From assembly GCF_900105555.1 (NCBI RefSeq), contig NZ_FNTZ01000001.1, forward strand, positions 4,405,001 to 4,469,000: a stretch of 64,000 nt of DNA, read 5' to 3'. The notes below the pieces were generated by a model. That model saw only the letters and a program-made list of their open reading frames with translations, was not told the origin of the DNA and searched no databases. How positions within the stretch are numbered: the first letter of the stretch is position 1; each line of letters opens with the position of its first letter. A program made the translations under genes and the position numbers. This DNA is from Pseudomonas coleopterorum. GTDB taxonomy: Bacteria; Pseudomonadota; Gammaproteobacteria; Pseudomonadales; Pseudomonadaceae. Positions 15,130 through 20,560 of the stretch are shown here, one piece after another.

Positions 15130-16632
15130 ATGCCGCAGACCAAAGCCAAGAACCTGTCCCTGATCGCCGCCATCGACCTGGGCTCGAACAGCTTTCATAT
15201 GGTGGTGGCCAAGGCCCACGTCAATGAAATCCGCATCCTCGAACGTCAGGGGGAAAAGGTCCAGCTTGCCGCCGGCATCGACGAGGAGCGCAAGCTCAGC
15301 GAAGAGTCGATGCAACGCGGCCTGGACTGCCTCAAGCGCTTCGCCCAGCTGATCAACGGCCTGCCCCTGGGCGCCGTGCGCATCGTGGGCACCAACGCTC
15401 TGCGCGAAGCCCGCAACCGCAATGAATTCATCGTCCGCGCCGAGCAGATCCTGGGCCATCCGGTGGAAGTCATCTCCGGCCGCGAAGAAGCTCGCCTTAT
15501 CTATCTGGGCGTTTCCCACACCCTGGCCGATACTCCGGGCAAGCGCCTGGTTGCCGACATCGGCGGCGGCAGTACCGAGTTCATCATCGGCCAGCGGTTC
15601 GAGCCATTGCTGCGCGAAAGCCTGCAGATGGGCTGCGTGAGCTACACCCAGCGTTACTTCCGCGACGGCAAGATCACCCCCGCCCGCTATGCCCAGGCCT
15701 ACACGGCGGCGCGTCTGGAGATCATGAGCATCGAGAACGCTCTGCATCGGCTCAGTTGGGACGAGGCCATCGGCTCCTCCGGCACCATCCGCGCCATCGG
15801 CCTGGCACTGAAAGCCGGCGGTCAGGGCAGCGGCGAGGTCAACGCCGACGGGCTGGCCTGGCTCAAGCGCAAGCTGTTCAAGCTGGGCGATGTGGACAAG
15901 ATCGATTTCGACGGCATCAAGCCGGATCGACGGACCATCTTCCCGGCGGGGCTGGCGATTCTCGAAGCGATCTTCGATGCGCTCGCCCTGCAGCGCATGG
16001 ACCACTGCGATGGCGCCCTGCGCGAAGGCGTGCTGTACGACCTGCTGGGTCGTCACCACCACGAGGACGTGCGCGAGCGCACCCTGGGTTCGCTGATGAC
16101 CCGCTATCACGTCGACGTCGAGCAGGCCGAGCGCGTGGAGCGCAAGGCCCTGCATGCCTTCGACCAGGTGGCAGCGGACTGGGGGCTGGAAGATGGGGTC
16201 TGGCGCGAACTGCTGGGCTGGGCGGCGAAGGTCCACGAGATCGGCCTGGACATCGCCCACTACCATTACCACAAGCACGGCGCCTACCTGATCGAACACT
16301 CGGATCTGGCCGGCTTCTCGCGTGAAGACCAGCAGATGTTGGCGCTGCTTGTACGTGGCCACCGACGCAACATCCCCAAGGACAAGTTCGCCGAGTTCGG
16401 CGATGACGGGGAGCAGTTGATCCGCCTGTGCGTGCTGCTGCGCTTCGCCATCCTGTTCCACCACATTCGGGGCACTCAGACGATGCCGGCGGTTTCCCTG
16501 CATGCCAAGGCCAAGAGCCTGGACGTGGTGTTCCCCGATGGCTGGCTGGAAAACAACCAACTGACCCAGGCCGATTTCGCCCAGGAAGCCGAATGGCTGA
16601 CCCGCGTGGGTTTTACCCTGACCGTTCGCTGA
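15130..16632 (+). CDS. ppx: Exopolyphosphatase
   Basis: Ppx hydrolyses inorganic polyphosphate (and often pppGpp) processively. The 500-residue protein has the actin-like ATPase-fold domains with [10 protein letters not shown] at 11-20 and the phosphate-binding [10 protein letters not shown] near 142-151, followed by an HD-like C-terminal domain ([20 protein letters not shown]). It ends ...VGFTLTVR. The ATG at 15130 is used instead of TTG two codons earlier. The gene is convergent with ppk, and its last seven codons plus stop begin the 92-bp tandem array downstream. Confidence 0.97.
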
Positions 16633-18178
16633 AGACCGCGCAGGCCCTTTCGCGGACAGAGACCCGCTCCCACATTGGAATGCGATCCCTGTGGGAGGTG
16701 GGCTTTACCCTGACCGTTCGCTGAAGATTGAGCAGGCGCCTTCGCGGGCAGAGACCCGCTCCCACATTGGAATGTGATCCCTGTGGGAGGTGGGCTTTAC
16801 CCTGACCGTTCGCTGAAGACCGCGCAGGCCCTTTCGCGGGCGGAGACCCGCTCCCACATTGGAATGCGATCCCTGTGGGAGGTGGGCTTTACCCTGACCG
16901 CTCGCTGAAGACCGCACAGGCCCTTTCGCGGGCGGAGACCCGCTCCCACATTGGAGTGCGATCCCTGTGGGAGGTGGGCTTTACCCTGACCGTTCGCTGA
17001 AGACCGCGCAGGCCCTTTCGCGGGCAGAGACCCGCTCCCACATTGGAGTGCGATCCCTGTGGGAGGTGGGCTTTACCCTGACCGTTCGCTGAAGATTGAG
17101 CAGGCGCCTTCGCGGGCAGAGACCCGCTCCCACATTGGAATGCGATCCCTGTGGGAGGTGGGCTTTACCCTGACCGTTCGCTGAAGATTGAGCAGGCGCC
17201 TTCGCGGGCAGAGACCCGCTCCCACATTGGAATGTGATCCCTGTGGGAGGTGGGCTTTACCCTGACCGTTCGCTGAAGACCGCGCAGGCCCCTTCGCGGG
17301 CAGAGACCCGCTCCCACATTGGAATGCGATCCCTGTGGGAGGTGGGCTTTACCCTGACCGTTCGCTGAAGACCGCGCAGGCCCTTTCGCGGGCGGAGACC
17401 CGCTCCCACATTGGAATGCGATCCCTGAGGGAGGTGGACTTTACCCTGACCGTTCGCTGAAGACCGCGCAGGCCCTTTCGCGGGCAGAGACCCGCTCCCA
17501 CATTGGAATGCGATCCCTGTGGGAGGTGGGCTTTACCCTGACCGTTCGCTGAAGACCGCGCAGGCCCCTTCGCGGGCAGAGACCCGCTCCCACAGTGGAA
17601 TGCGATCCCTGTGGGAGGTGGGCTTTACCCTGACCGTTCGCTGAAGACCGCGCAGGCCCTTTCGCGGGCGGAGACCCGCTCCCACAGTGGAATGCGATCC
17701 CTGTGGGAGGTGGGCTTTACCCTGAACGTCCGCTGAAGACCGCGCAGGCCCTTTCGCGCGCAGAGACCCGCTCCCACATTGGAATGCGATCCCTGTGGGA
17801 GGTGGGTTTTACCCTGACCGTTCGCTGAAGACCGCGCAGGCCCTTTCGCGGGCAGAGACCCGCTCCCACATTGGAATGCGATCCCTGTAGGAGGTGGGCT
17901 TTACCCTGACCGTTCGCTGAAGACCGCACAGGACCTTTCGCGCGCAGAGACCCGCTCCCACATTGGAATGCGATCCCTGTGGGAGGTGGGTTTTACCCTG
18001 ACCGTTCGCTGAAGACCGCGCAGGCCCTTTCGCGGGCAGAGACCCGCTCCCACATTGGAATGCGATCCCTGTAGGAGGTGGGCTTTACCCTGACCGTTCG
18101 CTGAAGACCGCACAGGACCTTTCGCGGGCAGAGACCCGCTCCCACATTGGAATGCGATCCCTGTGGGAGCGGGTCTCT
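16615..18178. repeat. 92-bp tandem array of ppx 3' end plus REP half-palindrome
   Basis: The core ACCCTGACCGTTCGCTGA recurs at 16615, 16707, 16799, 16891, 16983, 17075, 17167, 17259, 17351, 17443, 17535, 17627, 17719, 17811, 17903, 17995 and 18087, always exactly 92 bp apart (17 copies with minor variants, the first being the real end of ppx). Each unit joins the final ppx codons and stop to a spacer, the full left arm of a REP palindrome (GCGGGCAGAGACCCGCTCCCAC), its loop and only the first seven bases of the right arm. Units are 90-100% identical. Shared variants show segmental duplications, for example 17811-17994 repeated at 17995-18178. Confidence 0.97.
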
Positions 18179-18187
18179 GCCCGCGAA
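18121..18187. repeat. Complete REP palindrome closing the array
   Basis: The left arm 18121-18145 and right arm 18163-18187 are perfect 25-bp reverse complements (right arm begins GTGGGAGCGGGTCTCTGC) around a 17-nt loop. This is the only unit in the array with a full right arm, so it probably represents the original REP element from which the array grew. It lies 27 bp from the end of ppk and could also stop convergent transcription. Confidence 0.9.
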
Positions 18188-18213
18188 GGGGGCGCCGCCG
18201 ATCGTGATGTCTG

Positions 18214-20439
18214 CTAGCGCACCGGCAGGATCGGGTTGCTCAGCCGCTCCAGCAGGGTGTCCTGTGCACTGCGGGCGTTCTGGTTGCCGGTCGGCGTGTT
18301 GCGCACGTAGCGCCCGTCCGCCTGCAGGATCCAGGAATGGGTGTTGTCGGTCAGGTAGCTCTCCAGCTCCTTCTTGACCCGCATGATCAGCTTCTTGCCT
18401 TCGACCGGGAAACAAGTCTCCACACGCTTGTCGAGGTTGCGCTCCATCCAGTCGGCGCTGGACAGGAACATCTGCTCCTCGCCACCGTTGAGGAAGTAGA
18501 ACACCCGCGTGTGCTCCAGGAAGCGCCCGATGATCGAGCGCACATGGATATTGTGCGACACCCCGGGAATACCCGGCCGCAGGCAGCACATGCCACGCAC
18601 CACCAGATCGATACGCACACCGGACTGGCTGGCCTTGTACAGCGCGCGGATGATCTTTGGATCGGTCAGCGAGTTGAACTTGGCGATGATGTGCGCCGGC
18701 TTGCCATCGAGCGCGTACTGAGTTTCGCGCGCGATCATGTCGAGCATGCCCTTCTTCAGCGTGAAGGGTGCATGCAGCAGCTTTTTCATGCGCAGCGTCT
18801 TGCCCATGCCGATCAACTGGCTGAACAGTTTGCCGACGTCTTCGCACAGTGCATCGTCCGAGGTCAGGAGGCTGTAGTCGGTGTACAGCTTGGCGTTGCC
18901 GGCGTGGTAGTTGCCGGTACCCAGATGCGCATAACGCACGATCTCACCCCCCTCGCGCCGCAGAATGAGCATCATCTTGGCGTGGGTCTTGAACCCCACC
19001 ACGCCATAGATGACCACCGCGCCGGCGGCCTGCAGGCGGCTGGCCAGCTGCAGGTTGGATTCTTCATCGAAGCGCGCGCGCAACTCGACGACCGCGGTCA
19101 CCTCCTTGCCGTTGCGCGCGGCATCCACCAGCGCATCGACGATCTCGGAGTTGGCACCGCTGCGGTACAGCGTCTGCCGCACGGCCAGTACATGGGGATC
19201 CTTGGCGGCCTGGCGCAGCAGATCGACCACTGGCGTGAACGACTCGAACGGATGCAGCAGAAGGATGTCCTGCTTGCTGACCACGCTGAAGATGTTCTCG
19301 CTGTTCTGCAGCAGTTTCGGAATTTGTGGCGTGAACGGCAGGTATTGCAGTTCTGGGTGGCTGTCCAGGCCGGTGATGCTGAACAGACGCGTCAGGTTGA
19401 CCGGCCCGTTGACTTGATAGAGCTCGGTCTCGGACAAATTGAACTGCTTGAGCAGGTAGTCGGACAGATGCTTGGGGCAGGTGTCGGCCACTTCCAGGCG
19501 CACCGCATCACCGTAGCGCCGCGAGAACAACTCACCGCGCAGGGCACGCGCCAGGTCTTCGACGTCTTCGGTGTCGACCGACAGGTCGGCGTTGCGGGTC
19601 AGGCGGAACTGGTAGCAGCCCTTTACCTTCATGCCCTGGAACAGGTCATCGGCGTGGGCATGGATCATCGAGGACAGGAAGACGAAATTGTCGCCTGGCC
19701 CACCGACGTCCTCGGGCACCTTGATCACCCGTGGCAACAAGCGCGGCGCCGGTATGATCGCCAGGCCCGAGTCACGGCCGAAGGCGTCGATGCCTTCGAG
19801 CTCGACGATGAAGTTCAGGCTCTTGTTCACCAGCAGCGGGAACGGGTGTGTGGGATCCAGCCCGATCGGCGTGATGATCGGGGCGATTTCATCGCGGAAA
19901 TAACGACGCACCCAAGTCTTGAGCTTGGTCGTCCAGTGCCGGCGGCGAATGAAGCGAACCTGGTGCTTCTCCAGCTCCGGCAACAGGATGTCGTTGAGGA
20001 TCGCGTACTGGCGATCGACGTGCCCATGCACCAGCTCGCTGATTCGCGCCAGCGCCTGATGAGGCTGGAGACCATCGGCCCCGGCCTGTTCACGGGCGAA
20101 GGTGATCTGCTTCTTCAGACCCGCCACGCGGATCTCGAAGAACTCGTCGAGGTTGCTGGAGAAGATCAGCAGAAACTTGAGCCGCTCGAGCAGCGGATAG
20201 GATTCATCCAGTGCCTGCTCCAGCACGCGGATGTTGAACTGCAATTGCGACAGCTCGCGATGGATGTACAGGCTGCTGTCGTCCAGACCCGGCACGACGA
20301 TGTGCGGCGCCGGCGCGAGGGCCTCGCTCGGGTGCGCGGGTTCGACGATGGCTTCTATGACCAACGGCGCTTCTACCGGGGTTTCGACCACCGGCTGGTC
20401 TTGAGTGAGAGCGACTTGCGTCTGGGCTTCGTTGTTCAT
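18214..20439 (-). CDS. ppk: Polyphosphate kinase 1
   Basis: Ppk1 reversibly makes polyphosphate from ATP. The 741-residue protein has the N-terminal domain beginning near [13 protein letters not shown] (57-69), the head domain, and two phospholipase-D-like catalytic domains. The autophosphorylated histidine is H486 in FKTHAK, followed by [15 protein letters not shown]. About 50 N-terminal residues are Pro/Ala/Glu-rich and probably disordered. I chose the ATG at 20437-20439, not one 45 bases upstream, on family length and a GGGAACG site. A Pho box lies 122 bp upstream. Confidence 0.97.
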
Positions 20440-20560
20440 CTGGCGTTCCCGGGGGCGTAACTGCCCTCTGCAATTGAGCGGCACGGATCGCGTAATGCGT
20501 CAGGATGCCATTGGCGCCTGCACGCTTGGAAGGGGGGCGCGACAGTTATAAGCATCGATT

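Follow-up and report, generated by a model that had tools for sequence, protein, structure and literature searches.

How did the end of one gene come to stand in 17 tandem copies, each coupled to a repetitive extragenic palindromic (REP) sequence, between ppx and ppk of Pseudomonas coleopterorum? We analyzed this question in a 64,000-nucleotide stretch of the genome (contig NZ_FNTZ01000001.1, positions 4,405,001 to 4,469,000; hereafter the window, in whose own numbering positions are given), where an array of 92-bp units separates ppx, the exopolyphosphatase gene, from the convergent ppk, the polyphosphate kinase gene. With a probability of roughly 80%, we regard it as a REP/REPIN tandem array (REPIN, REP doublet forming a hairpin) that arose as a by-product of the REPIN family of this genome, through a duplication beside a REPIN and subsequent turnover of the copies, and that is largely neutral.

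Structure and variation of the array

Tandem Repeats Finder (TRF) placed 17.0 tandem copies with a period of 92 bp at 16606..18169 of the forward strand (95% matches, 0% indels, score 2813), and the runner-up tandem array within the window scored only 63. The period, the copy number and the identity of the first copy with the ppx end and its stop agree with a preliminary description of this locus. Copy 1 is the genuine end of ppx, whose last 27 nt (16606-16632, stop codon at 16630-16632) form the start of that copy, so that 16 copies are extra. Each unit consists of 27 nt of ppx tail, a 16-nt spacer, a complete 26-nt REP, a 15-nt loop and an 8-nt stub, TGTGGGAG, which matches the initial 8 nt of a second, inverted REP. 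Therefore, the unit does not hold half of a REP palindrome, as had been described, but a complete REP and a remnant of its inverted partner. The single REP is itself a small imperfect palindrome of 26 nt, and the complete REP has the same orientation in each of the 17 units; the REP of unit 1 (16649..16674, forward strand), which has one mismatch to TTCGCGGGCAGAGACCCGCTCCCACA, lies 16 bp past the ppx stop.

An intact REPIN, with perfect 26-bp arms and a 15-nt spacer, does not occur in each unit but only once, at the ppk end of the array (18121-18187). Its left arm (18121..18146, forward strand) is the REP of unit 17, and its right arm (18162..18187, reverse strand) has its first 8 nt in unit 17 and the remainder beyond the array. 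The single, ppk-proximal palindrome noted earlier is therefore real, although it is a REPIN with 26-bp arms rather than a 25-bp palindrome.

We also aligned the 17 units with one another and found that 20 of the 92 columns are variable. Only two pairs of units are identical, namely those starting at 16698 and 17158 (unit 2, 16698..16789, and unit 7, 17158-17249, both on the forward strand) and those starting at 17802 and 17986; the previously noted equality of 16707-16798 and 17167-17258 was reproduced with 0 mismatches. A block of five changes is common to units 2, 6 and 7. Two consecutive 184-bp dimers occupy 17802..18169 (forward strand) and, compared in register (17802-17985 against 17986-18169), differ by one mismatch (17943). 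The preliminary description had recognized this repeat, but its coordinates (17811-17994 and 17995-18178) give 6 mismatches and put the last 9 bases outside the array.

Tandem arrays break draft assemblies, as seen in Pseudomonas sp. 286 p4.G6, in which a contig ends inside an array at gudD, and the copy number could in principle be an assembly artefact of a shorter array. However, given that 20 of the 92 columns vary and that only two unit pairs are identical among 17 units, and with the genome assembled in two contigs, we consider such an artefact very unlikely.

The first 27 nt of the unit encode one common peptide in 14 of the 17 units, and units 4, 10 and 13 differ from it by a single residue. 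The array might accordingly be imagined as a store of the ppx tail from which gene conversion would maintain an intact C-terminus, an idea already present in the preliminary description, which saw in it an exact donor. The last 27 nt of ppx do occur in every unit with few changes, and in-register exchange would restore the ppx end. However, the gene has drifted from the copies: the second copied codon is GGT in ppx, whereas GGC is read at that base in 14 of the 17 units and in both near relatives' genes. Of the 16 extra tails, only two (units 14 and 16) match the present ppx tail, whereas 11 equal the tail of p4.G6, which has no array; this is the reverse of what would be expected of a donor and contradicts such a role. 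Conservation is also no higher in the tails than elsewhere in the unit (5 of 27 tail columns variable against 15 of 65, p = 0.78), a comparison that gives no sign of selection on the tail copies, and the store would cover only nine codons, stop included. We therefore find this idea scarcely credible.

Likely founder state and proposed origin

The two nearest named relatives encode a Ppx that is 99% identical. In Pseudomonas sp. 286 p4.G6, whose ppx is 93.8% identical at the DNA level, ppx and ppk are 109 bp apart, and the gap between them has a single REPIN from this family and no array. Both the 16 nt from the stop to the REP and the first 16 nt past the REPIN are identical to those of P. coleopterorum, and the unit-to-unit join is missing. 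Since the p4.G6 contig spanning this junction (442,813 bases) ends inside its gudD array, a hidden ppx array would probably have broken the contig as well. This comparison suggests that a single REPIN between the same immediate flanks is likely to be the founder state. Furthermore, the mean pairwise difference between units is 5.1%, which is below the 16.3% divergence of ppx third codon positions from p4.G6, and the array is therefore plausibly younger than the split from the p4.G6 lineage.

Based on the arrangement in this relative, we propose that one REPIN originally stood 16 bp past the ppx stop, between the convergent ppx and ppk. An illegitimate tandem duplication would then have joined the right arm of the REPIN, 8 nt into it, to the ppx coding sequence 27 nt from its end, perhaps through polymerase stalling at the hairpin or through repair of a break there. 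Subsequently, homologous exchange or slippage between units may have raised the count to 17 and spread the variants. The array would persist because in-register gain or loss of units keeps an intact ppx end at one edge and the whole REPIN next to ppk at the other edge; copy number should therefore be near neutral for both proteins. A likely side effect is that the strongest hairpin was shifted about 1.5 kb from the ppx stop while still adjoining ppk. We find no function that would need to be invoked for the array. The core of the preliminary description, a ppx tail amplified in tandem with a REP at a convergent ppx/ppk junction, with the copies exchanging, is retained in this proposal.

Homologous recombination between REP sequences is known as a source of large duplications in enteric bacteria, and REPs are abundant in the genome studied here, so that it could also have made the first duplication. 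However, on the left the unit starts within the ppx coding sequence and not in a REP, on the right it ends in the right arm of the REPIN, and the unit-to-unit join shares no base with either flank. We consider this route extremely unlikely.

Several observations weigh against a largely neutral by-product of the REPIN family. The 17 copies are the most of any array seen in the genome (the next has 14.2), and neutral drift need not give such a number. By our reading of the alignment, the loop of the p4.G6 REPIN appears to resemble the P. coleopterorum loop better when reversed, and this REPIN is therefore probably not the exact parent. A three-unit stretch folds better than its shuffles (z -4.6), with pairing between units, so the array is not structurally inert. 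Any role of the hairpin, or of a REP-associated tyrosine transposase (RAYT), in the first duplication is something that we only infer. Finally, neighbouring units are not significantly more alike than distant ones (17 units, 20,000 permutations; Mantel p = 0.13, lag-1 p = 0.16). Similarity of neighbours was therefore dropped as proof of slippage, and the sharing of variants suggests exchange or copying that spans several units rather than simple slippage between neighbours. The earlier reading of this sharing as repeated unequal exchange stands to that extent.

We also surveyed ppx-ppk junctions of other genomes to see how widespread such arrays are. The survey combined two parts: 80 named Ppx loci, the best of at least 568, of which 78 with ppk were measured (loci L099 and L100 end before ppk and were left out), and 60 junctions, chosen mainly for few contigs, of 199 genomes of the genus (all with Ppx, that of P. 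coleopterorum included). Together, they gave 134 distinct junction sequences besides the one studied here, and none of them has such a 92-bp array. The only TRF repeats with a period of at least 60 were found at the junctions of Pseudomonas baltica (once per collection) and of locus L092 (101 bp, 2.2 copies), so that repeats of about 100 bp in roughly two copies occur at two of the 134 junctions. The P. baltica junction has 2.1 copies of 104 bp with a different REP family, whose element reads GTAG. A further 27 junctions among 30 loci were measured for length and not counted in the survey, and TRF on 29 of these loci (that of P. coleopterorum excluded) detected nothing but the P. baltica repeat. 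When the 92-bp unit was searched for in 144 genomes, including that of P. coleopterorum, with at most six candidates scored per genome, the full-length matches listed were all in its own genome. Two close relatives (loci L031 and L032) carry different REP families at the same ppx 3' junction.

The REP family and its other arrays

The REP of the array belongs to a family with many copies in this genome. With up to three mismatches, 87 forward and 50 reverse sites were found (those of the array included), against 0 for the reversed-pattern control; a 25-mer variant with at most one mismatch gave 137 and 104 sites, again with 0 in the control. An apparent strand bias, with only forward sites between about 0.64 and 2.99 Mb, was rejected, as nine exact minus-strand sites in that range had been missing from the list. 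The genome contains two matches to Y1_Tnp, the RAYT type, and one RAYT-type gene (C1:2621779-2622087, PF01797) sits between exact REP sites at 2621449, 2621579, 2622250 and 2622402. About 2.3 kb from this gene there is also a 43-bp, 7.6-copy array without this REP (G000:C1:2624404-2624731). With many genome-wide copies, an inverted pair, a RAYT gene flanked by REPs and head-to-tail units, the array is a REP/REPIN tandem cluster. It is not a CRISPR (clustered regularly interspaced short palindromic repeats) array, as all 92 bp of the unit are conserved (95%) and there are no unique spacers. The tag of the element reads GTGG, which places it outside the superfamily of REPs with GTAG at one end, and its 17 units lack the alternating REP orientation of bacterial interspersed mosaic elements (BIMEs).

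TRF was applied to 24 stretches of the same genome taken at listed REP sites, mostly clustered ones; this selection is biased, and the lists of sites are not complete. It yielded 24 rows with a period of at least 40 and REP-like cores, which merge into 22 arrays besides the ppx array. This count leaves out two rows without a REP-like core, two arrays that turned up a second time because stretch L229 overlaps another, rows that coincide in part with a higher-scoring row, and shorter periods (e.g. a 29-bp array). The next largest arrays have 14.2, 10.7 and 9.8 copies. With 22 further arrays in 24 stretches chosen at REP sites, the process is general.

Three of these further arrays also carry gene ends: the 3' end of gudD, the 3' end of recN and the 5' end of a gene of the TraX family. 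Including ppx, this makes four of 23 arrays, which is a lower bound, as the flanking open reading frames of the others were partly checked. Downstream of gudD (glucarate dehydratase, TIGR03247), the array at C1:4727702-4728317 repeats 33-39 nt of the gene end three times. Pseudomonas sp. 286 p4.G6 shares the gudD array, of which its contig shows two units and then stops; the array was not found in P. baltica. The array at recN (NF008121; C1:642371-643214) has three 282-bp units in which the last 121 nt of recN recur twice, and at its join one base could be shared. It had been considered that loss of the palindrome from the units was needed for stability, but both REPs of the REPIN are still present in the units at gudD and recN, and this idea was rejected. 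Upstream of the TraX-family gene (PF05857; C1:328265-328750), its first 34 nt recur three times.

Some details of these three arrays were noted in passing. The gudD tail of P. baltica has 6 and 3 mismatches in 49 to the array copies of P. coleopterorum, compared with 10 in 49 to the host's own gene; the tail peptides read ISGWQF in the array copies and ISDWKF in the host's own gene. The recN units also hold a REPIN and, judged by eye, a terminator-like hairpin. The TraX-family array is the mirror image of the ppx case, and each of its full units has 22 bp that are found in neither flank.

In E. coli, BIMEs are REP arrays downstream of genes in which the REPs alternate in orientation; the ppx array shares the position downstream of a gene but has one REP orientation in its 17 units. 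With tandem units that may vary in copy number, the ppx array also resembles the bacterial minisatellites, or variable-number tandem repeat (VNTR) loci, used for multiple-locus VNTR analysis. According to the available parts of the study on P. fluorescens SBW25 (Bertels and Rainey 2011, PMC3116915), the clusters there likewise consist of head-to-tail REP or REPIN units with flanking sequence, many per genome, and RAYT genes adjoin clusters of their own REPIN group. The largest REPIN array described in those parts has four REPINs and a REP, and the largest REP arrays have twelve REPs, whereas the present array has 17 units, each with a full REP and an 8-nt stub, and its flank is the coding end of ppx. 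In the available parts of another study (PMC3733652), REPs of the GTAG family frequently lie between convergent genes, less than 20 bp from a 3' end, and clusters of REPs together with their flanking DNA are known in other genomes. The tag here is GTGG, however, and the tandem copying of gene ends is not described in those parts. Therefore, this kind of array has already been described, and what is new is a large member whose flank is a coding end. Our literature searches, which covered open-access papers, found neither a REP array between ppx and ppk nor a coding-end flank.

Possible effects on RNA and significance

Both flanking genes have full open reading frames and the expected domain content. 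The exopolyphosphatase gene ppx (Ppx/GppA family; 15130..16632, forward strand) encodes a Ppx-GppA domain and its domain III (PF02541 and PF21447), and ppk (18214..20484, reverse strand) encodes the N-terminal, middle and two C-terminal polyphosphate kinase domains (PF02503, PF13089, PF13090 and PF17941), with 26 bp between its stop and the REPIN. Among the 134 surveyed junctions, ppx and ppk overlap by exactly 14 bp in 20, are separated by less than 450 bp (median 139) in 108 and lie farther apart in six. The six longer junctions (L065, L093, L169, L170, L181 and L197) span 1.4-2.3 kb, apparently with inserted genes, and, by eye, L197 resembles an insertion sequence. Perfect inverted repeats of at least 10 bp occur in 104 of the 108 ordinary gaps, compared with 0 of 108 in mononucleotide shuffles. 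The preliminary expectation that other Pseudomonas junctions hold a single REP is thus borne out in that none has the array and nearly all ordinary gaps have an inverted repeat, but not at the 20 overlapping junctions, which have no gap at all.

Such frequent inverted repeats introduce the question of whether the array acts on RNA ends. In that case, the junction hairpin would serve both ppx and ppk as an element of 3' processing or termination, and copy number would tune it. The terminal REPIN is predicted to fold strongly in either direction (-73 kcal/mol, z -10.1 in the ppx sense; -70 kcal/mol, z -9.5 in the ppk sense), and the pairing between units in the three-unit RNA is in line with such a role. 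However, the parts of single units that follow the stop fold no better than shuffles (units 1, 5, 8 and 16; z -1.3, -1.0, -1.5 and +0.3). A blanket statement that the array RNA is no better folded than shuffles was nevertheless dropped, as it is true of single units and not of the three-unit stretch, and the RNA-end reading gained slightly in weight at the expense of the neutral by-product. Intrinsic terminator-like sites, defined as a GC-rich hairpin followed by a T run, number two in 16300-18500 and neither is in the array, whereas shuffles average 1.8. The lack of a gap at 20 junctions, the convergent and partly overlapping ppx and ppk of P. putida and P. aeruginosa (available parts of PMC3673903) and the absence of such an array from the other surveyed junctions also speak against a general role of this kind. 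Rfam matches at the REPIN (two microRNA families and a Streptomyces small RNA) were far below the gathering scores, and we attribute them to chance similarity with a long hairpin. We therefore regard a tuned RNA-end element as improbable. Of the terminator or barrier function suggested in the preliminary description, the intrinsic terminator is not found within the array, and the three-unit fold makes some effect of the array on RNA possible.

We also considered a wider reading, in which a REPIN beside a gene end invites runaway tandem duplication, REPIN-rich genomes steadily build copy-variable arrays with gene ends in them (those of ppx, gudD, recN and the TraX-family gene in this case), and the length of the ppx array tunes ppx and not ppk. 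We think this reading has little chance of being right. If it is true, then the length of the ppx array would set the distance that ppx RNA runs to the strongest hairpin, only the outermost REPIN being whole.

The array offers a clear worked case of how a REP array can start, with a single REPIN in a relative, a join in coding sequence and no shared bases, and it also shows that gene ends are carried along with REPs. Alongside the arrays at gudD and recN, it might be used in strain typing as a variable-number marker, and it could provide a simple system in which to measure how repeats expand next to a palindrome. If ppx RNA were altered by copy number, then the array would matter more.
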